Source: a virus
Length of the DNA: 50,154 nt
Reading direction: 5' to 3' (one strand)
Virus record (IMG/VR): IMGVR_UViG_3300037041_001770
Coordinates: 1-50,154 of that record
Below, in pieces: positions 3,593 through 50,154 of the stretch (positions within the stretch are counted from its first letter, which is position 1; each line of letters starts with the position of its first letter). A model generated the notes under the pieces. It saw nothing but the letters and a program-made list of their open reading frames with translations, did not search any database and was not told the origin of the DNA. The position numbers and the translations under genes are program-made.

Positions 3593-4831
3593 ATGGCGAA
3601 AAATTACAAAAGTATTTATGATTCTGGAAATGTGAGTATTGCGCTCGAGCAACGCTTTTTTGCAAAGCGGGAAACCACACGGGGGGAACTCAAAGCCCCA
3701 ATCGGCGCTGATTTCTTTTACCACACGACAGGAACAATCGAGCACACCCAAGCGGTGGAAAGCTCGCCACACAAATCAGGGCGGCACCACAACAACATTA
3801 TCAAAAAGAAAAAAGAGGCATCCTTTTCGTTCAGCACATTTTTTAACATCAACACGCTTTTACCAGCGGCCTCGGTCAACGAGATTGACCCAGCGGTTAG
3901 AATGCTATGGCACAACATGCTCGGTAGTGAAGATGTAACTGCCGGCGCTAAGTTCATGGCGGCGGTTCCTGCTTTTACATTCTCTCTTTTTGAAGTCTCT
4001 GATAAGTGGGCGCGTCAAGCACGCGGCTGTTTTATGCAGGGCGCTAACATGAGCTTTCCAGGCGATGGTGAGGCTACTATCGAGTGGTCCGGTATGTGCA
4101 AAGATGCTCTTTATGTAGGCATGGGAAAATCTACAACCTCTAACGACGGTGGTCAGACTGTAACACTCCAAGCGGGTGAAGGCGCACTATTCAGCAAAGC
4201 AATTGGCGGCCTCGTCATGCTCATTAAGTCTGATGGTATAACCCGCTCGGCTGATACGGTCGATGGTTCACCGCGTAAGATCGTGTCAGTTTTGGGCGAT
4301 GTTGTGACTCTTGACGGTGCGGTTTTAGCTGATGCTGATGGATCGGGCCTTGCTGATGAAATCTACCTTGTTTACTACGAACCTACTACCCCACTCGCAA
4401 TCGATAATCCTCAGACCGGCCTTGTTGGTTCCTTTGCTGTAACTGGCTTTGGATCTTTTTGCGCTCGCTCAATAGGCGTCAATTTGACCAATGATCATGA
4501 AGCGGCTAACTACTGCTATGGGTCTGACTCGCTATCTGCTCCATTTTTTATTGCGGGAAGCCGGTTAACTGCTGAAGTGACTTTTGAAGCTAACTGGGAC
4601 GAAAAAATGCTTGCTCTCTTCAACTCTGTTCAGTCATTCGAAAGTAAGGAGCTGCAAATAGTCTTGGGTGAAGCTGCTGGGCGAAGGCTTCAAATCGATA
4701 TTCCTACCGCTATTTTTCAGGTTCCCTCTGTTGCTATCCCCGATAGCGGCTCGGTTCCTGTTCCATTCACGGGTACGGCATACCAGTCAACATTTGACGC
4801 CGCCGATGAAATCTCGGTACACTATAAGTAG
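3593..4831 (+). CDS. Major tail (tube) protein
   Basis: 412 residues. It begins MAKNYKSIYDSGNVSIALEQR, then FFAKRETTRGELKAP, the opening typical of large siphophage tail tube proteins. Hydrophilic strand-rich sequence follows, with FSLFEVSDKWARQARGCFMQGANMS and a repeated beta-sandwich layout. The C-terminal half (about 300-412) resembles a second tube-like domain, with repeated EVTFEANWD/ELQIVLGEAAGRRL segments. It is preceded by an AGGAG-type ribosome site and a palindrome, and followed by a strong terminator. This isolates a heavily expressed structural gene between the connector genes and the tail chaperones. Confidence 0.75.
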   Translation: MAKNYKSIYDSGNVSIALEQRFFAKRETTRGELKAPIGADFFYHTTGTIEHTQAVESSPHKSGRHHNNIIKKKKEASFSFSTFFNINTLLPAASVNEIDPAVRMLWHNMLGSEDVTAGAKFMAAVPAFTFSLFEVSDKWARQARGCFMQGANMSFPGDGEATIEWSGMCKDALYVGMGKSTTSNDGGQTVTLQAGEGALFSKAIGGLVMLIKSDGITRSADTVDGSPRKIVSVLGDVVTLDGAVLADADGSGLADEIYLVYYEPTTPLAIDNPQTGLVGSFAVTGFGSFCARSIGVNLTNDHEAANYCYGSDSLSAPFFIAGSRLTAEVTFEANWDEKMLALFNSVQSFESKELQIVLGEAAGRRLQIDIPTAIFQVPSVAIPDSGSVPVPFTGTAYQSTFDAADEISVHYK

Positions 4832-4864
4832 TCAATCCGAGCACTCAAAGATTTTTTACAATTG

Positions 4865-4897
4865 AACTACCCTCAGCTATGGGGGTAGTTTTTTTTT
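4865..4897 (+). terminator. Rho-independent terminator after the major tail gene
   Basis: An 8-bp perfect stem (AACTACCC / GGGTAGTT) with a 10-base loop is followed by seven further T residues. It lies 34 bases after the major tail stop and before the chaperone genes. Confidence 0.88.
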
Positions 4898-4952
4898 AGG
4901 TTTCGTGGCAATCTTTCGTTAGAGTAAATAGATAAAAAATAAGGATTATTTT

Positions 4953-5423
4953 ATGGGTGTTAAACTTAGTCAAATAAGCGATGGATCGATTGAAGTAATT
5001 GCGAGAATTGATGACTCTCTTGAATACAATGAAGATGATTATCAAGAGTATTTAAAAACTCTCGATGAAAGCAAACTAAAATTTGTTGAGGGAAAGAGTC
5101 CAACAAAATTTATTATGAGAAAAGTATTGCCTTACAAACTTGCTCAGAAAGTTCAAAACAAGCAGATGAGACTAGAAAAGGGTGAGGCTCAGTTTTCTTT
5201 AAGCTTCATGGCTGAAGAGGTTCGTTGTTCTTTGACGGGTGTTAAAAATCCTGATTACCTGCCAGATGATGAAAAGATTAAGTTTGAAAAAAGCCGTGAT
5301 GATGATGGAGCTAGCGATGGACTCATTGAGAAGCTTATTGCTTGCGGCATTGCCTCCGATCTTTATGTTGCTCGCCAGACATTCATGCATGGCAATAAGG
5401 GTGCTGATTTAAAAAAAAGTTGA
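4953..5423 (+). CDS. Tail assembly chaperone, upstream frame (G-like)
   Basis: 156 residues. It lies between the major tail gene and the tape measure, the position of lambda G. The protein is acidic and helical, opening MGVKLSQISDGSIEV. Its last codons run over an eight-A tract (GADLKKS then stop), which is where the -1 frame opens into the 5420 frame. In lambda-like phages the unshifted protein (G) and the shifted fusion (GT) bind the tape measure and recruit tail tube subunits. The ribosome site is AAGGA. I infer function from synteny and frameshift architecture, since the family itself is diverse. Confidence 0.78.
   Translation: MGVKLSQISDGSIEVIARIDDSLEYNEDDYQEYLKTLDESKLKFVEGKSPTKFIMRKVLPYKLAQKVQNKQMRLEKGEAQFSLSFMAEEVRCSLTGVKNPDYLPDDEKIKFEKSRDDDGASDGLIEKLIACGIASDLYVARQTFMHGNKGADLKKS
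5411..5420 (+). other. Programmed -1 frameshift site (tail chaperone)
   Basis: Eight consecutive A bases (5411-5418), then GT, lie four codons before the upstream stop. Reading tta-aaa-aaa then slipping back one base gives aag-ttg-aca, which enters the downstream frame directly. A -1 shift at this gene position is a widely conserved feature of long-tailed phages. Confidence 0.82.
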
Positions 5424-25457: not shown

Positions 25458-26291
25458 ATGACAGTTTACACGGATTGGATCGGTACGCCTCGCGATGGCC
25501 TACCCATGTATGAAGAAATAGCGAAAACCGGCGCTAATACTGTCAGGATAGTTTGGAGCTACAAAGAAAACACCACAGCCAAAGAGCTTGATAATGCTAT
25601 TACAAACGCAGCAAATAACAAACTTTTTCCTATGGTTGAGGTTTTAGATAGAACATGTCAATGGTCAAGAGAGGCTTTTGACGAGATTTTATCTTTTTGG
25701 CTTCGAACTGATATCCTTGCGGTACTTAAAAAGCATGAGAAATATTTACTTTTGAACTTTGCTAATGAGCTTGGTAATAATGTAACTACTCTTGAGACAT
25801 ATAAAAGCGAGTACAAAAGAGCTGTTGAGAAGCTTCGCGCCGCTGGAATAAAAAGCCCAATAGTTATCGATGCTCCAGGATGCGGCCAAGATGAAACAAC
25901 TATGTTACAAGCGGGAAACTATCTTATTAATTCTGATCCTCTGCATAATATCATCATGAGCCTTCATTTATGGTGGGTTCCTCAGAATAATGAGAGAATC
26001 ACAAAGCTATTTACCGAAGCGGTAAGGCTAAATATTCCTCTTATCATTGGGGAATTTAGCGGTTTAGCGGTTGATTGTAAAACAAGCACAAATGTTGATC
26101 ATATTTTAAAAATGGCGCGTGATAATAAAGTTGGATGGCTTCCATGGTCATGGGATTCAGCAAATGGTTGTAAGCCTCATTCAATGACAACAGACAATAC
26201 ATTTAACGGGCTATTTGGATATGGAAAAGAGGTCGCCGTAACTCATTCCTATTCAATCAAAAACACCGCCGTTAGATCGCAATGCTTTTAG
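25458..26291 (+). CDS. GH5-type mannanase/glucanase catalytic domain (-1 frame)
   Basis: The open frame starts inside the domain at ATG 25458. The real N-terminal edge is upstream at 25368 in the shifted frame, where GVITTNGRAIFDSCGKEI and IPIGVNHMTVYTDW match the first strand of GH5 enzymes. In the portion from 25458, residues 25-33 (GANTVRIVW), 100-104 (NFANE, with E104 the acid/base), 166-173 (IMSLHLWW), 194-200 (PLIIGEF, with E199 the nucleophile) and VGWLPWSWDSANG all fit clan GH-A. The subfamily of bacterial beta-1,4-mannanases (GH5_8) is closest in pattern. It probably acts outside the cell on polysaccharide. All catalytic residues appear intact. Confidence 0.82.
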   Translation: MTVYTDWIGTPRDGLPMYEEIAKTGANTVRIVWSYKENTTAKELDNAITNAANNKLFPMVEVLDRTCQWSREAFDEILSFWLRTDILAVLKKHEKYLLLNFANELGNNVTTLETYKSEYKRAVEKLRAAGIKSPIVIDAPGCGQDETTMLQAGNYLINSDPLHNIIMSLHLWWVPQNNERITKLFTEAVRLNIPLIIGEFSGLAVDCKTSTNVDHILKMARDNKVGWLPWSWDSANGCKPHSMTTDNTFNGLFGYGKEVAVTHSYSIKNTAVRSQCF

Positions 26292-27919: not shown

Positions 27920-29104
27920 ATGAAATGGTTTTTGAGTATTTTTCTAGCATTAATTTTCAATGTGGGATGCTCTCACTTAGAGAGCGATGGCGTAACAGTT
28001 TTGAAATCAGAAACGGGAGAGAAGTTTTATAGTGGTTTAATCGTTCCCAAGGATTTTAAACCAACAAATGTAAGATCGGCGAAAGACGGGCTGCAAGGAA
28101 CCCTTCCCGCAGAGTTCGACGCAAGGACAAAAGGATATAAGGCACCAGAATCTCAGGGGAATTGCGGCAGTTGCTGGGCCTACGCCATGTCGGCCACTGT
28201 ACAAGATGCATACAAGTATCAGATGGGAAAAGACTTCGATACTTCGGAGCAACATGTACTCTCGTGCACAAAACCAGGGGAATACACTTGTAACGGTGGT
28301 TTCTTCGATTACAACAGACATCAGAATCCTTTTGGTGGCGTAACAGGCGCATCGTGGCCCTACTCTGGGACTGATGAAGCTTGCAGAACGGGACTCAATC
28401 ACCAGCTTAAGATTAAGCAATGGGCATACCTTCCAGGCGGTGAAAACCCTCCAATTGATGAAATCAAATCAGCTATCTATCGGTGGGGAATCGTCTCTGT
28501 TGGGGTCGCGGCCACAGATGGAATGTCTAATTATAAAAGTGGAATTTGGGAAGGAGACGGTTCAACTGCGCTTAATCATGCTGTTACCCTGGTAGGCTGG
28601 TCAGACGCCGGTCAATATTGGATAATGAAAAACTCATGGGGGACATCGTGGGGCCAAAATGGCTATATGTATATTCGGTACGGTGCTAACGGAATAGGCA
28701 CTTGGGCAAACTATGTCGTTTTTGACGATAACCCAACGCCAAATCCAGACCCAACTCCGGACCCTAAACCAACGCCCGATCCAGACCCAACGCCTCCACC
28801 ACCACCGCCTTGCACACCACAGCCATACGCGGATACTGGCTACGGTGATGAAATCCAGGTGTATGCTAATGCAAGTATAAGGGTAGGAACAAGAGGCCAA
28901 AGAGGTCATCGCTATTATTGGACAGCAGAACCAGCTTTTGATAATCAAGCGGTTCCTCAGTCAGCACAGATAAACTACCGCCCACGTATTACAAAGCGGC
29001 TTACGATTCACGCGGTCACCCAATGCGGCGAAGCTACCGACTCTGTGAATGTAAAATTAATTGGATATTATAAGCAGAAAATAGAGCAAGAAGTTGAAGA
29101 ATAA
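27920..29104 (+). CDS. Papain-family (C1A) cysteine protease, predicted lipoprotein
   Basis: 394 residues. Lipoprotein-type signal ending FNVGC (Cys17 as the lipidated residue), or an ordinary signal peptide, since the -3 residue is Asn. A short pro-like segment leads to LPAEFDARTKGY at about 62. The papain core is complete: Q79 and C85 in ESQGNCGSCWAYAM, the conserved CNGG at 124-127, H220 in LNHAVTLVGW and N238 in MKNSWGTSWG. A proline/aspartate repeat linker (PTPNPDPTPDPKPTPDPDP) covers about 273-298, then a C-terminal beta domain of about 90 residues. Active proteases of this type on phage are rare. Membrane-anchored, it could act on envelope or extracellular protein. Confidence 0.87.
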   Translation: MKWFLSIFLALIFNVGCSHLESDGVTVLKSETGEKFYSGLIVPKDFKPTNVRSAKDGLQGTLPAEFDARTKGYKAPESQGNCGSCWAYAMSATVQDAYKYQMGKDFDTSEQHVLSCTKPGEYTCNGGFFDYNRHQNPFGGVTGASWPYSGTDEACRTGLNHQLKIKQWAYLPGGENPPIDEIKSAIYRWGIVSVGVAATDGMSNYKSGIWEGDGSTALNHAVTLVGWSDAGQYWIMKNSWGTSWGQNGYMYIRYGANGIGTWANYVVFDDNPTPNPDPTPDPKPTPDPDPTPPPPPPCTPQPYADTGYGDEIQVYANASIRVGTRGQRGHRYYWTAEPAFDNQAVPQSAQINYRPRITKRLTIHAVTQCGEATDSVNVKLIGYYKQKIEQEVEE

Positions 29105-30048: not shown

Positions 30049-30858
30049 ATGTTAACAATTGAAGCCGTTGTAGTTTGTTATAATTACTCTGATTTCCTTG
30101 AGGCGACCCTACCGCACAATATCCAAATGGTAGATAGGCTAGTCGTTGTTACTCACCCAAGCGATAAAATGACGGGAAAACTCTGTGATAAATATTCAGT
30201 TGATTGCATAAAAACTGAGATATTTCACGATGATAACGACAGATTCAATAAGGGTCGCGCAATCAATCTAGGGCTTCAAAATCTAAGGCATGACGGTTGG
30301 CTGATGCATCTCGATGCTGATATCCTTCTACCGCACCGCTTCCACAATGCTTTAAAAATGGCAAAGCTCGATACGACTTGTCTGTATGGTGCTGATCGGC
30401 TTAACACGGTCACCTATGAAAACTGGGAGAGACACAAAAATAGAAGCATCCCTCAGCACTCATGGAGATTCATGGTTAACCCACAAAAAGAATTCCCGCT
30501 TGGCTCACGGCTTCTTCACTTAGAGTATGGATATTGTCCTATAGGCTACTTCCAACTTTGGTCATCAAAAGCACGGCGACAATACCCGATAGTATGCGGT
30601 AGCGCCGAGCATTCCGATGTTTTATTTGCTACCCAATGGCCGAGAGAAAAGAGAGTTTTACTACCTGAATTTTTCGTTTATCACCTGGAAAGCGAGGATG
30701 TAAAAATGGGGGCAAACTGGGACGGGAGAAAAACCAAGGCTTTTGGCCCTGCTGGAACCCCGAATCCTGGCGAAATCCAGAATCCAGGGGGAAAAAAAAT
30801 CATTCATCCTTTCGGGAGTAATGGACTAGCCAAAGACTTTGGTAATCCAACTTATTAG
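30049..30858 (+). CDS. GT-A family glycosyltransferase
   Basis: 269 residues. Begins MLTIEAVVVCYNYSDFLEATL, the usual GT2 start (V-v-x-x-Y-N). The metal-binding DxD is in DGWLMHLDADILLPHRF (about residue 90). The second half has CPIGYFQLWSSKARRQYPIV, WPREKRVLLPEFFVYHLES, then a G/P-rich tail (GTPNPGEIQNPGGKK). It would transfer a sugar from a nucleotide sugar. On phages such enzymes modify host surface polysaccharide, virion proteins or DNA. Its stop overlaps the stop of the convergent gene 30855-31112, marking the boundary with the minus-strand early region. Confidence 0.72.
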   Translation: MLTIEAVVVCYNYSDFLEATLPHNIQMVDRLVVVTHPSDKMTGKLCDKYSVDCIKTEIFHDDNDRFNKGRAINLGLQNLRHDGWLMHLDADILLPHRFHNALKMAKLDTTCLYGADRLNTVTYENWERHKNRSIPQHSWRFMVNPQKEFPLGSRLLHLEYGYCPIGYFQLWSSKARRQYPIVCGSAEHSDVLFATQWPREKRVLLPEFFVYHLESEDVKMGANWDGRKTKAFGPAGTPNPGEIQNPGGKKIIHPFGSNGLAKDFGNPTY

Positions 30859-40057: not shown

Positions 40058-40381
40058 ATGACCGCCAACGATATTAAAAATGAATTTCAAACTATGCAAA
40101 TAATTGCAAAAAAACTGCTTAATTTATCTGATGAACAAAGGGCGCGGGTTATCAACTTCCTTCTTCAGTCAGTTTCTGAAGAAAGCAGCGACGCTCAAAA
40201 TGAAATCAAGACAATTGGGTTTTGCCTTTCCAAACTTGAGAAGCTTGGCAAAGACGAAAGCAACGCCGTTGTTAAATTTCTGGTTGATCGGTTCATGGCG
40301 ACACGCTGCGAAAAATCAGAAGTAGAGACAAGTGAGCCAGAAGCAGAAACCGAGCTTTGGGAAGACTTAGAGGCAAAATGA
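40058..40381 (+). CDS. Small helical protein, first gene of the late operon
   Basis: 107 residues from ATG 40058 (ribosome site AAGAGG); the longer open frame from 39992 is unlikely. Two helices, MQIIAKKLLNLSDEQRARVI and KTIGFCLSKLEKLGKDESNAVV, then an acidic tail. The L-s-x-e-x-r-x-R-v-x-x-f-L pattern appears in small phage proteins near terminase. It overlaps the next gene by four bases (ATGA). Confidence 0.55.
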   Translation: MTANDIKNEFQTMQIIAKKLLNLSDEQRARVINFLLQSVSEESSDAQNEIKTIGFCLSKLEKLGKDESNAVVKFLVDRFMATRCEKSEVETSEPEAETELWEDLEAK

Positions 40382-40845
40382 GCGAAGTAAAAGCTGCAAC
40401 TCTGCAACAATTCATTGCAGCAAAAACCCTCGATAATCTTGACAGGGTTCTCCTTAAGTATTCAGTAGAATATCCCAGCCTTGACGCGGTCAAACTTTCA
40501 AAAATGCTTAACATCGGTGTGAAAGTTATTCGTTCAAGGCGAGGTGATCCCCTTTTCCAGTTAGAGCTTCAAAGACTATCGCGTACAACTGACTCACTTC
40601 TTGAAGAAGCTGCAAAAAAAGCAACGCTCAGACTTATTGAGCTGATTGACTCCTCAGACCCAGACATCGCCCTTGCCGCGTGCAAGCTGGCACTTACTCG
40701 TAAGATGCAAGAACTTCCCGAAAACACTCAGCGCCGCATCATTGCATATCAAACAAGCATCAGCCCCGACGGAACTTTGTTACAAGAGATTGTACAAGAA
40801 GAGCTTTCTGGGCATATTATTGATGTTGAGTGTTCATCCAAATAA
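40378..40845 (+). CDS. Putative terminase small subunit
   Basis: 155 residues from ATG 40378 (ATGA overlap). The N-terminal half has a helix-turn-helix: KYSVEYPSLDAVKLSKMLNI, then GVKVIRSRRGDPLFQLELQR. A helical oligomerization region follows (LEEAAKKATLRLIELIDS, then DPDIALAACKLALTRKM). Size and location two genes before the large terminase fit TerS, which recognizes the packaging start. The family is diverse, so order is the main support. Confidence 0.65.
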   Translation: MSEVKAATLQQFIAAKTLDNLDRVLLKYSVEYPSLDAVKLSKMLNIGVKVIRSRRGDPLFQLELQRLSRTTDSLLEEAAKKATLRLIELIDSSDPDIALAACKLALTRKMQELPENTQRRIIAYQTSISPDGTLLQEIVQEELSGHIIDVECSSK

Positions 40846-40863
40846 AAACAAAAGGGGGTTTTC

Positions 40864-41076
40864 TTGCCTCTACACATGCTTGTAGCAATCGGCGATACCA
40901 TCAATATTGGCGATGAAATCACTATCAAATATGTCAAGCGCATGGGTAACAATGTTGGGCTTGCGATAACCGCACCAATATCTATAAAAATCAATCGTAT
41001 CAAAGGGGATCAAAATGCCAGAAAGCAAGACAGAACTAACGGCGATAGTGGGGGAGTTAATCGAGGTAGGGATTAG
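40864..41076 (+). CDS. csrA: CsrA-like RNA-binding translational regulator
   Basis: 70 residues from TTG 40864. The GGGGG ribosome site is five bases away, and the extra residues MPLH complete the first strand that an ATG start at 40876 would lose. Residues 4-49 follow the CsrA core: HMLVAIGDTINIGDEITIKY, then MGNNVGLAITAPISIKIN and RIKG. Key positions are G-D-x-I-x-I-G-D-e, the G-x-x-V-x-L-a-i-x-A-P, and the R near position 45 that contacts GGA RNA. The C-terminal tail (RTNGDSGGVNRGRD) is not CsrA-like. It may control phage or host mRNAs with GGA loops. The 41015 gene overlaps its end by 62 bases. Confidence 0.78.
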   Translation: MPLHMLVAIGDTINIGDEITIKYVKRMGNNVGLAITAPISIKINRIKGDQNARKQDRTNGDSGGVNRGRD

Positions 41077-41290
41077 CTATTTCAGCCGGTGCGGTAACAA
41101 AGCAAAGATTTTGGAGTACAAGGAAGTAGTTGTCAGTGGCAAAATTGTTTATCAGTACAAGGGTCAAATCATCGCGGTGATTCCTGGACATGAAATTTTG
41201 CTCTATAAAATGCATTGGTATGATGCCAAAGGAAAATGGCTTAAAAATCCTGGAGGGATTCACGACCTTGTCAGAAAAGCAAACAGCTAA
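41015..41290 (+). CDS. Hypothetical protein overlapping csrA and terminase
   Basis: 91 residues, AGGGGATC ribosome site. A beta-rich protein: TELTAIVGELIEVGISYF, then KILEYKEVVVSGKIVYQY and IAVIPGHEILLYKMHWYD. It overlaps csrA upstream (62 bases) and the TTG of the large terminase downstream (23 bases). It may assist packaging, or only be a coupled small gene. Confidence 0.55.
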   Translation: MPESKTELTAIVGELIEVGISYFSRCGNKAKILEYKEVVVSGKIVYQYKGQIIAVIPGHEILLYKMHWYDAKGKWLKNPGGIHDLVRKANS

Positions 41291-42650
41291 ACCAATTATC
41301 GTCACACCACCCAAGGCTCATAGTAAAAAGCAGCAATTTATCTATTCTGCTTTCGGATACCCAAGCATTAGAGAAGTTTGGGTATGCGCGGGAACCAAAT
41401 TTGGTAAAACGCTAGCGGCCTCCGCTTGCCAAATCAATTACGCACTCCCGCGCCCCAATACCAAACATCGATGGGTCGCCCCTATTTACGCTCAGACTCG
41501 CCAGCCAATGGAATATTTTGAAAGGATTCTGCCAAGCGGGGATCACAGAAAGATTAACAAAGGCGAGAATGTTATCTATCTCCCGCACACCAATAGCCGA
41601 ATCGAATTCTGGCACTCGCAAAGCCCAAGCTCCTTAGAGGGTGATGGTATCCACTCGTATGTTTTCGATGAAGCGGCGCGGCAACCTCCCGACATAAAAT
41701 CATCGGCGCGAACGACTACCACAAAAACCAAAGGGCCGATGATATTCATCTCATACCCGTATGGTAAAAACTGGTTTTATGATGGATGCATGGAAGCTCA
41801 AGACCATATGCTTTGGGCCTTCAAAAATAATAAACCCTATGAAAAAATCTTCCTTCACGCCCGTACCGCAGATAATCCAACAATCGACCCGCAGGTCATC
41901 GAAAACGCAAAAAAAGAACTTCCTTGGAGGCTTTTTAGGCAATTTTATCTTGCCGAATTTGTGGATGATGGTGCGGTATTCACCAATATTGATGGCTGTA
42001 CCTTCGGCGAAAAGTTCATCTTAACCGGCGAAATTCATCAGTGGTTCGATCCATCATTCAAGGAATACTCGGTTGTCATTGGGGCCGACTGGGCTAAAAA
42101 ACAGGACTTCACGGTTTTCATTGCTATCGATATGGCAAGCGGTAGGGTAGTTGGAATCATGAGATTTCACCGAAAGCCTTATACCGAGCAAGTAAGAATT
42201 TTGGCATTTTTTGCGAGAAAGTTTAAATATGTCGAAATGATACTTCACGATAAGACGGGAGTAGGCGAAGCGATTGATGACAATCTGGCTTATATCAATC
42301 AACCCTATCGTGGTATAATTCAAACAAATAGCCTTAAAGCAGAACTGATGATGAAACTCATTACCGGATTTGAGCAGGGGCAAATAAAAATACCATTTTG
42401 GTCAGAAATGATTGGTGAACTAAGAGCATATGAAGTTAAGGTAAATGCACTCGGTACTACACAATACGGCGCTCCTTCTGGTAAGCATGACGATATTGTT
42501 TCAAGTCTCGCCTTTGCTTGGTATGGGTATGAAACGTATTCAGAACACGACATGCAGGTTAAGTTTTTAGATGATTTGCAAAGCGAATCTCAAAACGATA
42601 AAACAGAGTTAGAGCAATACTATAATGATATGATGGAAGATGATTTTTAA
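41268..42650 (+). CDS. terL: Terminase large subunit (TerL)
   Basis: 460 residues from TTG 41268, which has GGAGGG eleven bases upstream; the longer frame to 41190 would overlap the previous gene fully. The ATPase has Walker A GTKFGKT (about 42-48), with VFDEA as Walker B (about 132-136). A nuclease domain of RNase H type has VIGADWAKKQDFTVF (Asp in GADW), LHDKTGVGEAIDD and PSGKHDDIVSSLAF (conserved Asp pair). It cuts and translocates DNA into heads. Confidence 0.92.
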   Translation: MSEKQTAKPIIVTPPKAHSKKQQFIYSAFGYPSIREVWVCAGTKFGKTLAASACQINYALPRPNTKHRWVAPIYAQTRQPMEYFERILPSGDHRKINKGENVIYLPHTNSRIEFWHSQSPSSLEGDGIHSYVFDEAARQPPDIKSSARTTTTKTKGPMIFISYPYGKNWFYDGCMEAQDHMLWAFKNNKPYEKIFLHARTADNPTIDPQVIENAKKELPWRLFRQFYLAEFVDDGAVFTNIDGCTFGEKFILTGEIHQWFDPSFKEYSVVIGADWAKKQDFTVFIAIDMASGRVVGIMRFHRKPYTEQVRILAFFARKFKYVEMILHDKTGVGEAIDDNLAYINQPYRGIIQTNSLKAELMMKLITGFEQGQIKIPFWSEMIGELRAYEVKVNALGTTQYGAPSGKHDDIVSSLAFAWYGYETYSEHDMQVKFLDDLQSESQNDKTELEQYYNDMMEDDF

Positions 42651-42664
42651 AAAAAGGGTATCAC

Positions 42665-44938
42665 ATGGACGAAACCCCAGTAACTCGCAAAATTGACAAA
42701 ACCGCTAGCCTTGTCGCAAGCTATCAAAAGCTTGCTAAAACCATATCAGACATGGAATCCAAGGCGTACGATATCGTAAACGATTTTGAAAAAACGGGTG
42801 GAGTTTGGAACGAAGAAGAAAAAGCCTTTTTAGACATGATGACACTCAAGGGGCTTTTCACTTCTGAACACTGGGTTTTCATCATTGTCGATTTGATAGC
42901 AATGAAAATCTGTAATCAAAAGCTTCAGGTTTTTAGGAAAACGGTTACAGATGGAAGCGAAAAAATAGAGCCAGCTTTAAATCATCCCCTTCAAAAAGTT
43001 ATCGATAATCCAAACCCCATGATGAGCTACGCTGATATGATGTATAGTCATACGGTTGATTTAACTCTTCTTGGTAATGCTCTACTTTGGAAAGGGCCTC
43101 TTAGTTCAAGCTTGTGGCCAATTCCCGCTGATACGGTGATGCTCAGTTTCGATAAAATGGAAACGCTCATAGGATATAATCGCTATAATTTTAGGGGATA
43201 TCTTGAGCCTCTTCAGCTTGTAAAATACTTCCCGCTCAATGAAATCATTCACAACAAAAAACCAAATCCATCTAATTACTATTGGGGCCTCTCTCCTTTT
43301 ATTCCAGGCAGGAAACCAATTTTATTTAACCGCTTTACAAGCGAGTATTTGAACAACTACTATTTAAAAGGCGCGACCCCTGGGCTGTCATTAGAAATGT
43401 CTAACGAAGCCAACGAAAAAAACGCAACGAGACTTTTACGTTCCTTTGAAGCAGCCTATACGGGTCGCGCCAACCAAAGAAGAACCCTTGTTTTACCAAA
43501 GGGTGTAACAGCAAAGCAGATAGCACACACCCTAGCCGACCAGCAACTAAAAGATTACCTCATAGCCAATAAGGAAGATATTTTAGCACTTCTTAAGGTT
43601 CCCAAGCATGAAGTAGGGCTTCAAACCGGCGGCTCACTTGGTTCTGAAGAGTATAAAACAGCTCTCAAAAACTTCTGGGCTTCAACTCTTGTGCCGACCC
43701 AAAACCTTATAGCAAGCGGATTTAACCGAGCCTACAAAGACCTTTTAGGGGATAGTTATTTTTGTGCGTTTAATAACGATAATGTTGAGATTTTGAAGGA
43801 AAACGAAGTTGAAAAGTCCAATATTGCGGTAGGACTTTTAAAGACTCATACCATCAACGAAGTAAGGGCAAAGCTCTATCAGCTTACCCCACTTCCTGGC
43901 GGTGATGAGATTCCAGGCGCTTCAACGCAGCAATACCCGACTTTCAATCTTCATAGTCAGGCCGAAGCGATAAAATCAAATGATGAGATAACCGCACCAA
44001 TCGAAAAAAAAATAGAAAACGCTGCTGATGTTGTCATCAAAGCCAATGGCGACTGGTTTGAAGGTCATAAGCAAAAAATCAAAGAGGCAATAGAGAAACC
44101 AGAAATTGAGCTGCAAAAAGCGGCTATCAAACTATTTGCCGATCAATCGGTTAGTGTTATAAAAAAGCTAAATAAAATACTTGGAAAATCAAAAGCAAAC
44201 TACGAAATAAAAAACGATACCTTTATAAAACAACTGATATCAAAAGAAGTTGGTGCTTACTTAGCTGATTGGGTTAGTCATTATAAAGATATTGGTGACG
44301 GTATTGCTGTTTCTGGATGGGTTTTAGCGGGTGACTCTCCCGTCAAAGTTGACGAACTTAACATTGAAATCAGCGATAAATATAAAAAAGAGCTAAATAA
44401 TGAACTTGAGCAAAGAGCTAAAAACAGTTTTGCTTATATGTCTCAGACAACCACAAATGATATTTTTAGCATCATAAAAAGAGGTATCGACGACTCAAGC
44501 ACGGGCCAGCAAATAGCCGAAAAAATCAGCGGTATCTTTGCAAATCCCGAAAAAATGCTAGGCAGGGCGCAAACTATCGCAAGAACCGAATCTCTATCAG
44601 CTCTTTCAATGGGAAAAGCAAAGCAGTTTCAGCAAGCTTCAAAAGTCATTCTAGACTTAAAAAAACTTTGGATGAGCACAAACGACAATCGCACGCGGGG
44701 CAACCCGTCCGGATTATATCCCGATAGTGATTCAGACCATTGGGATCTTCACGGTCAAGTGGTTGATCATGACAAAAAGTTTGTTGACCCTCGCTCAAAG
44801 GAACAACTATCTTTTCCTCGTGATCCAGCGGGTTCGGCTAGTGCGGTGATAAATTGCCGGTGTACTTGGATCACTTTACCGGCCAAAGAGATGGATCAAT
44901 TAATTAAAAGCGAAGCAGAGGTAAAACCGAATGACTAA
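42665..44938 (+). CDS. Portal protein fused to a Mu F-like head morphogenesis domain
   Basis: 757 residues. Residues about 60-420 are HK97-type portal: PLQKVIDNPNPMMSYADMMY, TLLGNALLWKGPLSSSLWPI, YFPLNEIIHNKKPNPSN, GLSPFIPGRK and a wing with KVPKHEVGLQTGGSLGSEEYK. Residues about 590-745 match the Mu F-like domain: FANPEKMLGRAQTIARTES, GKAKQFQQASK, then W-x-S-T-x-D-x-R-T-R and INCRCTWITLP. These two functions are usually separate genes. One protein carrying both is unusual but known in some phages. Confidence 0.88.
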   Translation: MDETPVTRKIDKTASLVASYQKLAKTISDMESKAYDIVNDFEKTGGVWNEEEKAFLDMMTLKGLFTSEHWVFIIVDLIAMKICNQKLQVFRKTVTDGSEKIEPALNHPLQKVIDNPNPMMSYADMMYSHTVDLTLLGNALLWKGPLSSSLWPIPADTVMLSFDKMETLIGYNRYNFRGYLEPLQLVKYFPLNEIIHNKKPNPSNYYWGLSPFIPGRKPILFNRFTSEYLNNYYLKGATPGLSLEMSNEANEKNATRLLRSFEAAYTGRANQRRTLVLPKGVTAKQIAHTLADQQLKDYLIANKEDILALLKVPKHEVGLQTGGSLGSEEYKTALKNFWASTLVPTQNLIASGFNRAYKDLLGDSYFCAFNNDNVEILKENEVEKSNIAVGLLKTHTINEVRAKLYQLTPLPGGDEIPGASTQQYPTFNLHSQAEAIKSNDEITAPIEKKIENAADVVIKANGDWFEGHKQKIKEAIEKPEIELQKAAIKLFADQSVSVIKKLNKILGKSKANYEIKNDTFIKQLISKEVGAYLADWVSHYKDIGDGIAVSGWVLAGDSPVKVDELNIEISDKYKKELNNELEQRAKNSFAYMSQTTTNDIFSIIKRGIDDSSTGQQIAEKISGIFANPEKMLGRAQTIARTESLSALSMGKAKQFQQASKVILDLKKLWMSTNDNRTRGNPSGLYPDSDSDHWDLHGQVVDHDKKFVDPRSKEQLSFPRDPAGSASAVINCRCTWITLPAKEMDQLIKSEAEVKPND

Positions 44939-46436
44939 TAGACTTAGTTTTGATTTCAAAATAAAAGCAAAAGAGCAAAACGGTAGGATTGTTATTGCTG
45001 GTTTTGCTAATGCTAATACAGTGGATCGGGGGATTGAACGAATCGACCCAAAAGCCTGGAAGCTCGCGAACTATATCAAAAACCCTGTTGTTCTCTTTGA
45101 TCATGGGATTGATTCATCATTCGGGGCAATGCCAATCGGTAGGGCAACGAAGGTCGAAGCTCGCGATGGTGGGTTATTTGCTGAAATAGAAATCAGCAAT
45201 AGCAAAACTGAAAAAATAACAGCAATTAGGGATTTGATTGAAGAAGGCATATTAAAAACTTTTTCAGTTGGATTTGATCCAAAAAACGCTAACCGCGATG
45301 GTGAGACAAAAATAATAACAGATGCTGAACTTTTAGAAATTTCTGTTGTTCCTATCCCGATGAACCAAGATTCTACTTTCTCGCTTCTTTCGAAGTCTTT
45401 GGGCGAAAACCGCACCAAAATAGCTAAAAAATGGCTAGCTAAGTATCAAAAAGGCATTAGACAGAAAGTCATTGATAGCACAAAGAAAGAGCTTGGTTGT
45501 AGTAGTTTAATTTTGCTTAACCTTAAACTCGCCAAAGAAGGCTTCAAAGACTTAGAAGCGGCTCAAAAACTTGCTAAACAATTTGGCTATGCTGTTGATA
45601 AGGTTAGCGAGGATGAAAAACATTTCATTTTCAAGCAATCAGATGCAGAGTATCAGGATAGCATTTTAATAAATTTGGCTAACAATGTTCAAGCCGAGGT
45701 TAAGGGGCAAAAGATGGAAGTCAATGAAGAAGAAAAACCCAAGGAAGGCGAAGAAAAACTACCCTCTGAAGATGCTGAAACCAAACCTATCGTTACAGAT
45801 GAAGAGCTACCCAAAGAGGGTGAGGAAGAGCCAGAGATAAAAGCAGAACTCACCAAGGAAGATATCGACGCCTCCGTATCAGCTTGGCATGATGAAGCGA
45901 TGGCTTGCGCGGCTAATGAGGGTGAAACGCCTTCATGGGTTACTGATGCGGCGGCTTGGGATAAAGCAAAGGAAGCGGCTGATTTATCCTACTCGCGGGA
46001 TGATCCAGAAAAATATCTGGCGGTAGTATCTTGGCTCTATCTCAATAAATTTAAAAATGATGAAATAGAGCCTTTACCTTTAGATGATCAAAAAGGGTGC
46101 GGTAATAAAGAAGATGAAAAAGAAATCAAATCGGCACCAATTCCAACAGGTTCAAATGCGGTCGATAACAACACGTCGCCAGCTCTTGACCTTAGTCGTC
46201 AAACCAATGTACTTTTGGGGGCATTAATATCAGAAGTTCAGCGACTCAATCAGGCTATGGAAAAATTAGTTGTAAAACCGATGGAGTCAGGCGAAACTGA
46301 AACTATGACAAATGAGTCAGAAGAGTCAGAAGAAGGGGCCGAAACTCCTCAAGACGACGAAGAAATGAAGTCATTCATTGCGCGTATCAGAAAAAATCAG
46401 GATGATTTAAATATGAGATTAAAAAGTTTTCAATAA
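44931..46436 (+). CDS. HK97-type prohead protease with long acidic C-terminal region
   Basis: 501 residues. The protease domain (about 1-155) carries H58 (VVLFDHG), S112 (LKTFSVGFDP) and E136 (ELLEISVVPIPMN), the catalytic set of the HK97 protease family. The remaining 340 residues include a helical part, a Glu/Pro/Lys-rich stretch (EEKPKEGEEKLPSEDAETK), a folded segment with DIDASVSAWHDEAMACAAN, and a C-terminal helical region (LLGALISEVQRLNQAMEKL). Such extensions often act as an internal scaffold that the protease removes. The start overlaps the portal stop. Confidence 0.85.
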   Translation: MTNRLSFDFKIKAKEQNGRIVIAGFANANTVDRGIERIDPKAWKLANYIKNPVVLFDHGIDSSFGAMPIGRATKVEARDGGLFAEIEISNSKTEKITAIRDLIEEGILKTFSVGFDPKNANRDGETKIITDAELLEISVVPIPMNQDSTFSLLSKSLGENRTKIAKKWLAKYQKGIRQKVIDSTKKELGCSSLILLNLKLAKEGFKDLEAAQKLAKQFGYAVDKVSEDEKHFIFKQSDAEYQDSILINLANNVQAEVKGQKMEVNEEEKPKEGEEKLPSEDAETKPIVTDEELPKEGEEEPEIKAELTKEDIDASVSAWHDEAMACAANEGETPSWVTDAAAWDKAKEAADLSYSRDDPEKYLAVVSWLYLNKFKNDEIEPLPLDDQKGCGNKEDEKEIKSAPIPTGSNAVDNNTSPALDLSRQTNVLLGALISEVQRLNQAMEKLVVKPMESGETETMTNESEESEEGAETPQDDEEMKSFIARIRKNQDDLNMRLKSFQ

Positions 46437-46450
46437 TTTGGGGGATACAA

Positions 46451-47845
46451 ATGTATACGAAAGAACAGTTAGAAGCGATGTTGAAAGAAACCGAAACTCT
46501 GAAGAGTCGGGTCGATGCTGCCGAAATGAAGTCAAAAGAGCTTGAAACAGAAAATCTTAAGCTTCAAACAAGCATGAAAACAATCGGAAATCGTTCTGAT
46601 TCAGACGAAGCAAGAGCAATGCGTTATTTTGGTGTATCTCACCCCAAGCAGCTTCTTTCTGTCAATGTTGCATCACCTGCTTTTAGAATGGTTCCTGATG
46701 AGCTAAAGCATCTCGTTCTTAACTTCAAAAAATCTGTTGATGTTGCTCGATTCACGGCTCAAATGTTTCACGGTGCGGCTCTTGATGATGTTCGCGGTGA
46801 CTCTGAATCACCTGCAAAAATCAAAGGACTTCTTGAAACCCGTTATGGCAGAGAAATCCTTGTTCCTGCACTCAAGGCTTTTGGTTCAACTGTTGTTGGC
46901 GGCGGTGACGAGTGGGTTCCTACTGCTACCGCATCGAGCTATATTGATGAATACTCTTTGGAGCGCGTACTTGAGCAGCGTTTTAAAGTTGTAAACATGC
47001 CAACAAACCCATTTGATCAGCCAGTTGTTAAGCAAGGCACAAAGGCAAGAAAATCAACAGAAGGTACAATCATGACAGCTGGTCAGTTTCAAACTGATAA
47101 GCTCACCATGTCTGCTGTTAAACTTGCTGAATACTATGAGATTCCAGAAGAACTTAACGAAGATTCCGCGCCAGATTTCTTGGCTGCTGGACGTGATCAT
47201 GTGGTTAAAGCTCAGAAGGATGCTGTTGAAGCAGCTCTTTTAAACGGTGATGACGATGGTGCTCACATTGATAGTGATACCCAAGCTTTGGGCGCTGATA
47301 TTGCCGAGAAAATTTGGAAGGGACTTCGCCGCGAAGCTCTTTCGAACTCTGCAAACGGTGCAACTTTTGACTTTACAAACGCCGTAGCCGATGAAACTAA
47401 GCTGCGTACTCTTCGCGCACGCATGGGCAAGTTTGGCAAAAACGAGAAAGAACTTTGCTGGATTGTTGGAACCAATGTTTATACCCAAATGTTGGGCTTT
47501 GACACTGTTGCAACTCTTGACAAGTTTGGCCCCAATGCTACCGTACTTCAGGGCGCACTTGCTGCATACCAAGGCATTCCAATCATTTGTAGCGAGTACA
47601 TGCGCGAAGATTTGAACGCTAACGGTGTATTTGATGGCATTGTGTCCACAAAAGCGGCAATGCTTCTTGTGAACCTAACCCGTTGGTACATCGGCAACAG
47701 AAGGCCGATCCAAGTTAAGCTCATGATGGATCTTCCTTACCACGACAGATGGCTCCTTGCTTCTTATCGCCGCGTAGCTTTCAAAGGGTTCGCGCAGTCA
47801 GCGACAGAAACAAGCGTTGTTTACGGTTACAATATCGCTAAATAA
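46451..47845 (+). CDS. HK97-fold major capsid protein
   Basis: 464 residues. The N-terminal 50 residues form a coiled coil (TKEQLEAMLKETETLKSRVD) like the delta (scaffold) domain. The HK97 fold follows with VGGGDEWVPTATASSYIDEY, SLERVLEQRFKVVNMPTNPF, STEGTIMTAGQF and an A-domain loop (RDHVVKAQKDAVEAALLNGD). The C-terminal portion has YQGIPIICSEYMREDLNANG and VNLTRWYIGNRRPIQVKLMM. Strong terminator after the stop, as expected for the most expressed protein. Confidence 0.9.
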   Translation: MYTKEQLEAMLKETETLKSRVDAAEMKSKELETENLKLQTSMKTIGNRSDSDEARAMRYFGVSHPKQLLSVNVASPAFRMVPDELKHLVLNFKKSVDVARFTAQMFHGAALDDVRGDSESPAKIKGLLETRYGREILVPALKAFGSTVVGGGDEWVPTATASSYIDEYSLERVLEQRFKVVNMPTNPFDQPVVKQGTKARKSTEGTIMTAGQFQTDKLTMSAVKLAEYYEIPEELNEDSAPDFLAAGRDHVVKAQKDAVEAALLNGDDDGAHIDSDTQALGADIAEKIWKGLRREALSNSANGATFDFTNAVADETKLRTLRARMGKFGKNEKELCWIVGTNVYTQMLGFDTVATLDKFGPNATVLQGALAAYQGIPIICSEYMREDLNANGVFDGIVSTKAAMLLVNLTRWYIGNRRPIQVKLMMDLPYHDRWLLASYRRVAFKGFAQSATETSVVYGYNIAK

Positions 47846-49968: not shown

Positions 49969-50154
49969 ATCTTTAATTGTCGGGCTTTTTTTGGTAGCTT
50001 CAAATGCCAACGCAGCTCTCTATCTCTATGATAGAACACAGTTTGCGGGAACAGTACCGTTTGATAACTCAGTAAATTTGTTTTCAGCCGATAATGTTCA
50101 GGCAGCAATTGAAGAAGTAAAACAGGCTAATGAAAACATAGCAAGGTTTCTCAC
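49955..50154 (+). CDS. N-terminal part of exported virion-like protein (continues at 1-446)
   Basis: The ATG at 49955 overlaps the stop of the preceding gene. Signal peptide MKLIKSLIVGLFLVASNANA, then ALYLYDRTQFAGTVPF. The frame is open at the window end and continues exactly in position 3-446, making a joined protein of about 172 residues. The run of exported small proteins (49546, 49955) next to capsid genes mirrors the exported fibre-tip proteins at 18212-20881. Confidence 0.75.
   Translation, partial: MKLIKSLIVGLFLVASNANAALYLYDRTQFAGTVPFDNSVNLFSADNVQAAIEEVKQANENIARFL
50028..50154. repeat. Terminal direct repeat, right copy (circular closure)
   Basis: Identical to bases 1-127. Removing one copy gives a circle of 50,027 bases. 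Confidence 0.93.

Follow-up and report, generated by a model that had tools for sequence, protein, structure and literature searches.

A diverged CsrA-family protein encoded between the terminase genes of a phage: a candidate regulator of late phage genes

Introduction

Why would a phage carry a gene for a CsrA-like protein in the middle of its packaging genes? The question is raised by a locus in a 50,154-nucleotide stretch of viral DNA (IMG/VR virus record IMGVR_UViG_3300037041_001770; hereafter the window, meaning the whole stretch), which represents a circular or terminally redundant phage with identical 127-base ends (1-127 and 50028-50154). Phage copies of CsrA have hitherto been interpreted as tools directed at the host. 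PF02599 proteins are recorded in 30 phages by Sobrero and Valverde (PMC7366521), and Campa et al. describe phage CsrA copies as strongly resembling the bacterial protein, note that their presence correlates with CsrA-bearing hosts, and propose an anti-CRISPR role for them (PMC8450108). An earlier note on the window, made from the sequence alone, described a CsrA-like regulator that could either silence host genes or time phage translation.

Results

A TerS-like gene and TerL flank the CsrA-like gene

The CsrA-like open reading frame was confirmed with the position, TTG start codon and 70-residue product first noted, and its description as lying beside terminase proved exact, since it sits between a TerS-like gene and the gene for TerL (Table 1). 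An alternative in-frame ATG at 40876 would give a protein that lacks strand 1. The claim that translation begins at the full-length TTG was borne out, because GGGGG stands 5 nt upstream and the N-terminal strand is common to the relatives L003 (MLHILIDIGDT) and L005 and L006 (MALMTTIDIGD, after GAGGAG).

Table 1. Features of the packaging and head region of the window
Feature	Position	Strand	Basis
TerS-like gene, 5' of the CsrA-like gene	40378..40845	+	position and conservation in L003, L005 and L009; without family match
Ribosome-binding site GGGGG, 5 nt 5' of the CsrA-like TTG	40854..40858	+	sequence
CsrA-like coding sequence, 70 aa, TTG start	40864..41076	+	open reading frame list and family matches
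PF02599 core match, profile positions 8-44 of 53	40888..40998	+	profile match
Ribosome-binding site GGGGA of ORF2, inside the CsrA-like gene	41005..41009	+	sequence
ORF2, small protein, predicted SH3/Tudor-like barrel, 62-base overlap with the CsrA-like gene	41015..41290	+	conserved together
TerL, start uncertain (open reading frame opens at 41190)	41268..42650	+	family matches
Portal with Mu-F-like C-terminal domain	42665..44938	+	family matches
S78 prohead protease	44931..46436	+	family matches
HK97-type major capsid protein	46451..47845	+	family matches

One caveat is that the final 62 bases of the CsrA-like gene are shared with ORF2. The open reading frame is not a chance one, because L003, L005 and L006 each have an orthologue in the corresponding position, and because the codon changes that separate L005 from L006 are synonymous only (3 synonymous and 0 non-synonymous in the CsrA-like gene; 8 and 0 in ORF2). 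The orthologues share about 50% identity. Judging by these substitutions, the CsrA-like gene is under purifying selection in the relatives.

The relatives were obtained by alignment of TerL and portal; scanning viral contigs with the CsrA-like protein alone returned none, and scanning genome contigs for a host with TerL and portal returned none either. The order TerS, CsrA-like gene, ORF2, TerL is common to L003, L005 and L006, with other small genes following TerS in L003, and the CsrA-like/ORF2 pair also stands upstream of TerL in L091, which was fetched with the portal. Among 69 portal-fetched loci, many of them fragments, the pair was present in four (L070, L072, L073 and L091), the first three being the contigs of L006, L005 and L003. 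L009 has TerS and TerL and lacks both the CsrA-like gene and ORF2; in every member of the clade seen, ORF2 accompanies the CsrA-like gene. The model of ORF2 was confident (pLDDT 86), with middling SH3/Tudor-like matches, namely CarD (Z 5.9, 62 aligned residues, 2.9 Å) and EF-P (Z 5.8, 59 aligned residues, 2.8 Å), the latter resemblance being to domain I.

A AAAAGGGGGTTTTCT-like stretch occupies window positions 40850-40863, before the CsrA-like gene; similar stretches in L005 (about 616-631) and L006 stand before another gene, two places upstream. Elsewhere, the window encodes a papain-family cysteine protease (27920-29104, E 8.8e-42), a GH5 cellulase-like protein (25458-26291) and a family 2 glycosyltransferase (30049-30858).

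The window protein is a far-diverged CsrA relative

The CsrA profile match on which the earlier note had staked its reading was found: the protein matched PF02599 with E=1.4e-8 and 35 bits, above the gathering score of 27. It also matched PHROGs 5527 (1.7e-6, the best), 9500 (3.6e-5) and 8397 (0.0012), and CsrA/RsmA chains in the PDB at E about 2e-4. The cut-offs of the NCBIfam CsrA equivalog models were missed (31.1 against 73 bits and 28.6 against 70.1 bits). Status as a CsrA/RsmA orthologue was rejected, as these models fail and Arg6 and Glu46 are both lost, although Arg44 is kept. Compared with CsrA/RsmA/RsmE, here E. coli CsrA, the protein shares the fold and the core motif IGDEITI...GNNV...ITAP and keeps Arg44, whereas LTRR in strand 1 and HREE in strand 5 and the helix are lost.

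The structural model, a monomer built from four sequences, was of moderate confidence (mean pLDDT 72.3, pTM 0.46); strands 1 and 5 were not assigned as strands, and the predicted C-terminal helix comprised only 3 residues, where pLDDT was about 49. The 15 best Foldseek matches of this model were all CsrA/RsmA chains at probability 0.99-1.00, with a best E of only 6.6e-3. VIA-align gave 1vpz_B as the best match (Z 5.2, 47 aligned residues, 2.5 Å) and, CsrA apart, listed no family above Z 2.1. Thus, the Pfam and PDB matches, Foldseek and VIA-align all support the CsrA-like fold and family first claimed from the core motif, and the window protein is a real, far-diverged CsrA relative.

Phage CsrA-like proteins form three branches that differ in gene surroundings

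In the records inspected, canonical phage copies lie amid early, regulatory or unannotated genes, and annotated head genes adjoin none of the six (F116, phi297, D273, VvAW1, PhiXhv-12 and PSTCR8lys); the neighbours of the Pondi copy are annotated only as hypothetical. The early-region copies of F116, phi297, Vibrio phage D273 and VvAW1 have PF02599 in common with the window protein, but their LTRR and HREE motifs are nearly intact and their surroundings are early or regulatory, unlike those of the window gene. A head-module class, by contrast, has the same kind of small CsrA-like protein inside late head and packaging genes (PHROG 8397; Lessievirus DC1, BcepMigl and JC1, Lastavirus LASTA, Ittyvirus Itty13, Parlovirus Parlo, and Pavtokvirus). 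Divergent copies stand directly 5' of the major capsid gene in DC1, BcepMigl, Itty13, ZX1, Parlo, LASTA, Pavtok, Skulduggery, JC1 and PEp14, the downstream gene of Itty13 being annotated as hypothetical and in fact a capsid homologue. A search of IMG/VR with the divergent class retrieved 36 loci, of which 30 were head-module and 6 canonical, without capsid context; in 29 of the head-module loci the capsid gene is immediately downstream, and the contig of the thirtieth ends first.

We compared the classes at three residues, counting identical proteins once; the counts are not an unbiased survey, as we split canonical from head-module copies by context and sequence and fetched the IMG/VR loci with head-module patterns. 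Arg6 was present in 13/13 canonical, 0/33 head-module and 0/4 window-clade proteins, Glu46 in 11/13, 2/33 and 0/4, and Arg44 in 13/13, 24/33 and 3/4 (the window, L005 and L091, with Lys in L003). Strand-1 Arg6 and Arg7 contribute to the RNA surface of known structures; they are replaced by Val/Ala in the window protein, Ile/Asp in L003 and L005, and Leu/Glu in L091, while the equivalent of Leu2 is retained in the window protein. In place of the pair Arg6-Glu46, an inter-subunit salt bridge in RsmA, the window protein has Val and Lys. The RsmN paper describes Arg8-Glu64 of RsmN as a pair that makes an inter-subunit contact in RsmA, and assigns the contacts with GGA mainly to backbone groups together with Arg44 (PMC3791407). 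Loss of both partners of this salt bridge may keep the window protein from pairing with host CsrA.

With Arg6 lost and Glu46 almost always lost, the head-module class shares these changes with the window clade, and it is also the closest class by profile-profile comparison (P 2.4e-12, against 5.9e-9 for canonical phage CsrA). PHROG 8397 is the best match of L003 and L005, while that of the window protein is 5527. In a tree of 47 columns, few for the number of rows, the canonical (98/91), head-module (97/89) and window (96/81) proteins formed three separate branches, the last made up of the window protein and three relatives. Placement of the window clade inside the head-module class was rejected on account of this separate branch and because its gene is not directly upstream of a capsid gene. 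Thus, the window gene represents a third lineage, in a late operon, and because of this separation any transfer of function from the head-module class is weak.

Capsid-gene leaders of the head-module class carry a conserved RNA element

Between the stop codon of the head-module CsrA-like gene and the capsid AUG, a pattern GCGC[A/U]-..GA.-G[U/C][G/U] was present in 38/38 leaders (33 distinct), and the hairpin GCGC-(AnGA)-GUGC in 33/33 distinct leaders against 0.41 expected from dinucleotide shuffles, the pattern having been derived from the same data in which it was counted. Examples are L044:4231-4290 and L058:4224-4284, and the element is also present in L017. Across 31 distinct trimmed leaders its core hardly changes.

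A second, long-range pairing joins the hairpin region to the 12 bases immediately 5' of the capsid AUG, and this pairing covaries. The summed duplex energy of leaders with their own partners was -430, compared to -319 (sd 11.8) with permuted partners, and -311 compared to -233 (sd 9.7) for 24 representatives, values reached in 0/2000 permutations in either case; the permutations ignore relatedness. Eight of the 31 leaders (L030, L034, L040, L050, L052, L055, ZX1 and Skulduggery) pair no better than most swaps. Covariation in the local hairpin was modest (18 double-changed cells against 10.9 in shuffles, with 10/500 as high), and its four core pairs hardly vary; the long-range pairing is therefore the stronger result.

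When the capsid leaders were folded at minimum free energy, a plain count of GGA in the hairpin loops showed no excess, with 1 case against 2.5 expected; pairing of the GGA arm with the sequence just 5' of the AUG may account for this. A loop GGA was present in 27/30 leaders of phages whose protein has Arg44 and in 1/10 of the others (Fisher p 7e-6), with Pavtok, PEp14, PBC5 and L053 as exceptions. This is only suggestive of a link between loop GGA and Arg44, which would be partly by descent, the cases without Arg44 coming mostly from one clade.

Four capsid-leader loci compared with Rfam gave no match at E 1 or below, and we found no prior description of the element in the literature searched; the founding Bcep22/BcepIL02 paper may mention it. 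Five distant capsid relatives that lack a head-module gene within 1.4-1.5 kb upstream of the capsid gene (K248, F116, KPP25, phiA008 and ctDrO) gave no significant match to the element (best E 0.2, phiA008). PBC5 was considered as a phage with the hairpin and no CsrA-like gene, and was rejected as such when a search of the whole record located the gene about 30 kb away (L146). Its leader element occurs in two copies about 60 bases apart, L138:1344-1392 (-) and L138:1454-1506 (+). Mwe-JY07, with a weak CsrA-like open reading frame before the capsid gene (E 6e-4) and a weak element (E 0.31), was excluded from the counts.

The window lacks the head-module leader element

R1, a covariance model of the leader element, gave no significant match to the window (best E 0.63) or to L002, L003, L005, L006, L009 and L091 (best E 0.28). 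The hairpin GCGC-AnGA-GUGC was absent from the start of the window's major capsid gene, no conserved GGA hairpin was found at its late-gene starts, and Rfam gave no match on the window at the gathering score. Thus, whereas the head-module gene stands directly upstream of a capsid gene of another family with a leader hairpin, the window gene, of its own clade, lies between TerS and TerL with ORF2 and is hairpin-free. GGA motifs at phage ribosome sites, suggested earlier as a check, showed nothing specific: at 59 window starts of our choosing, GGA occurred within 22 nt of 29 and GGGG at 13, a GGA frequency explained by Shine-Dalgarno sequences.

Discussion

We favour, at slightly less than even confidence, the reading that the window protein is a CsrA-family RNA-binding regulator dedicated to the phage. 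Made with the late packaging and head operon, it would act, presumably as a dimer, on the phage's own late mRNAs and so determine how much packaging or head protein is made, or when. We infer a late phage mRNA as the target because the distant head-module class pairs its gene with a capsid-leader hairpin and a covarying long-range pairing. The earlier suggestion that a late-operon copy times phage translation is thus plausible, with support that is indirect, coming from distant relatives that adjoin this hairpin; its companion, silencing of host genes, found no support, the canonical strand-1 Arg6/Arg7 and Glu46 being lost. Against regulation of late genes stand the absence of the leader element from the window and its relatives, the loss of the strand-1 arginines, and the ability of L009 to do without the gene.

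Other readings draw on the same evidence. The CsrA fold could have been reused for a small virion or packaging protein that no longer binds RNA, which would suit both the loss of the strand-1 arginines and the position of the gene amid packaging and head genes in the window clade and the head-module class. A single unique peptide points to the presence of the head-module CsrA of JC1, gp47, in virions, a finding that its authors call not definitively confirmed (PMC9144972). Retention of Arg44 (Lys in L003) and the conserved RNA element tied to the head-module relatives argue for RNA binding instead, and we regard a structural role as unlikely. We consider it quite unlikely that the protein is a mimic aimed at the host Csr network (metabolism, motility, CRISPR-Cas), which it would hijack or sequester. 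Arg44 is kept, and such a role was proposed for phage CsrA by Campa et al. together with the host correlation, but the window protein is unlike the copies that they call highly similar to bacterial CsrA (PMC8450108). Furthermore, its gene is part of the late operon for packaging, a setting not shared by the six canonical copies, and the genome-contig scans gave no relative.

In CsrA, a domain-swapped dimer that binds ANGGA RNA, each RNA site combines parts of both chains. A protein with its strand-1 contacts lost and Arg44 kept could therefore spoil one half-site in a mixed dimer and act as a dominant-negative antagonist of host CsrA; loss of both Arg6 and Glu46 argues for a separate dimer interface, and we think such antagonism very unlikely. 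That the gene is a decaying accessory without function is extremely improbable: it is small and is absent from L009 and most portal relatives, but about 50% identity is maintained at the same place, and neither it nor ORF2 has any non-synonymous change between L005 and L006.

Beyond the dedicated late-gene regulator favoured for the window, we put forward a broader and more doubtful scheme, in which at least two late-operon CsrA-family phage lineages, kept apart from host CsrA through the missing Arg6-Glu46 pair, would govern translation of their own head or packaging genes. The window clade would do so through a site in the TerS-TerL region, and the head-module class through a switch between the local hairpin, exposing AnGA, and the long-range helix that covers the sequence just 5' of the capsid AUG. 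In Bacillus subtilis, FliW-CsrA-flagellin homeostasis lets CsrA control the level of a major structural subunit. By analogy, the head-module class may do likewise for the capsid protein, and the switch, if true, would be the viral equivalent of flagellin control by CsrA. A CsrA-like class in the head operon beside a conserved RNA element would then be a regulator of capsid level instead of a tool against the host. The capsid-gene hairpin, which reaches beyond the window, is the most testable part, offering an RNA target that can be tested directly in phages open to cultivation (Lessievirus, Lastavirus and Parlo).

In six others of the 69 portal-fetched loci, a small open reading frame between TerL and portal weakly resembles the head-module CsrA-like proteins (L118, L119 at 4763-4987, L120, L123, L124, and L135 at 4670-4909; E 8e-5 to 7e-3).
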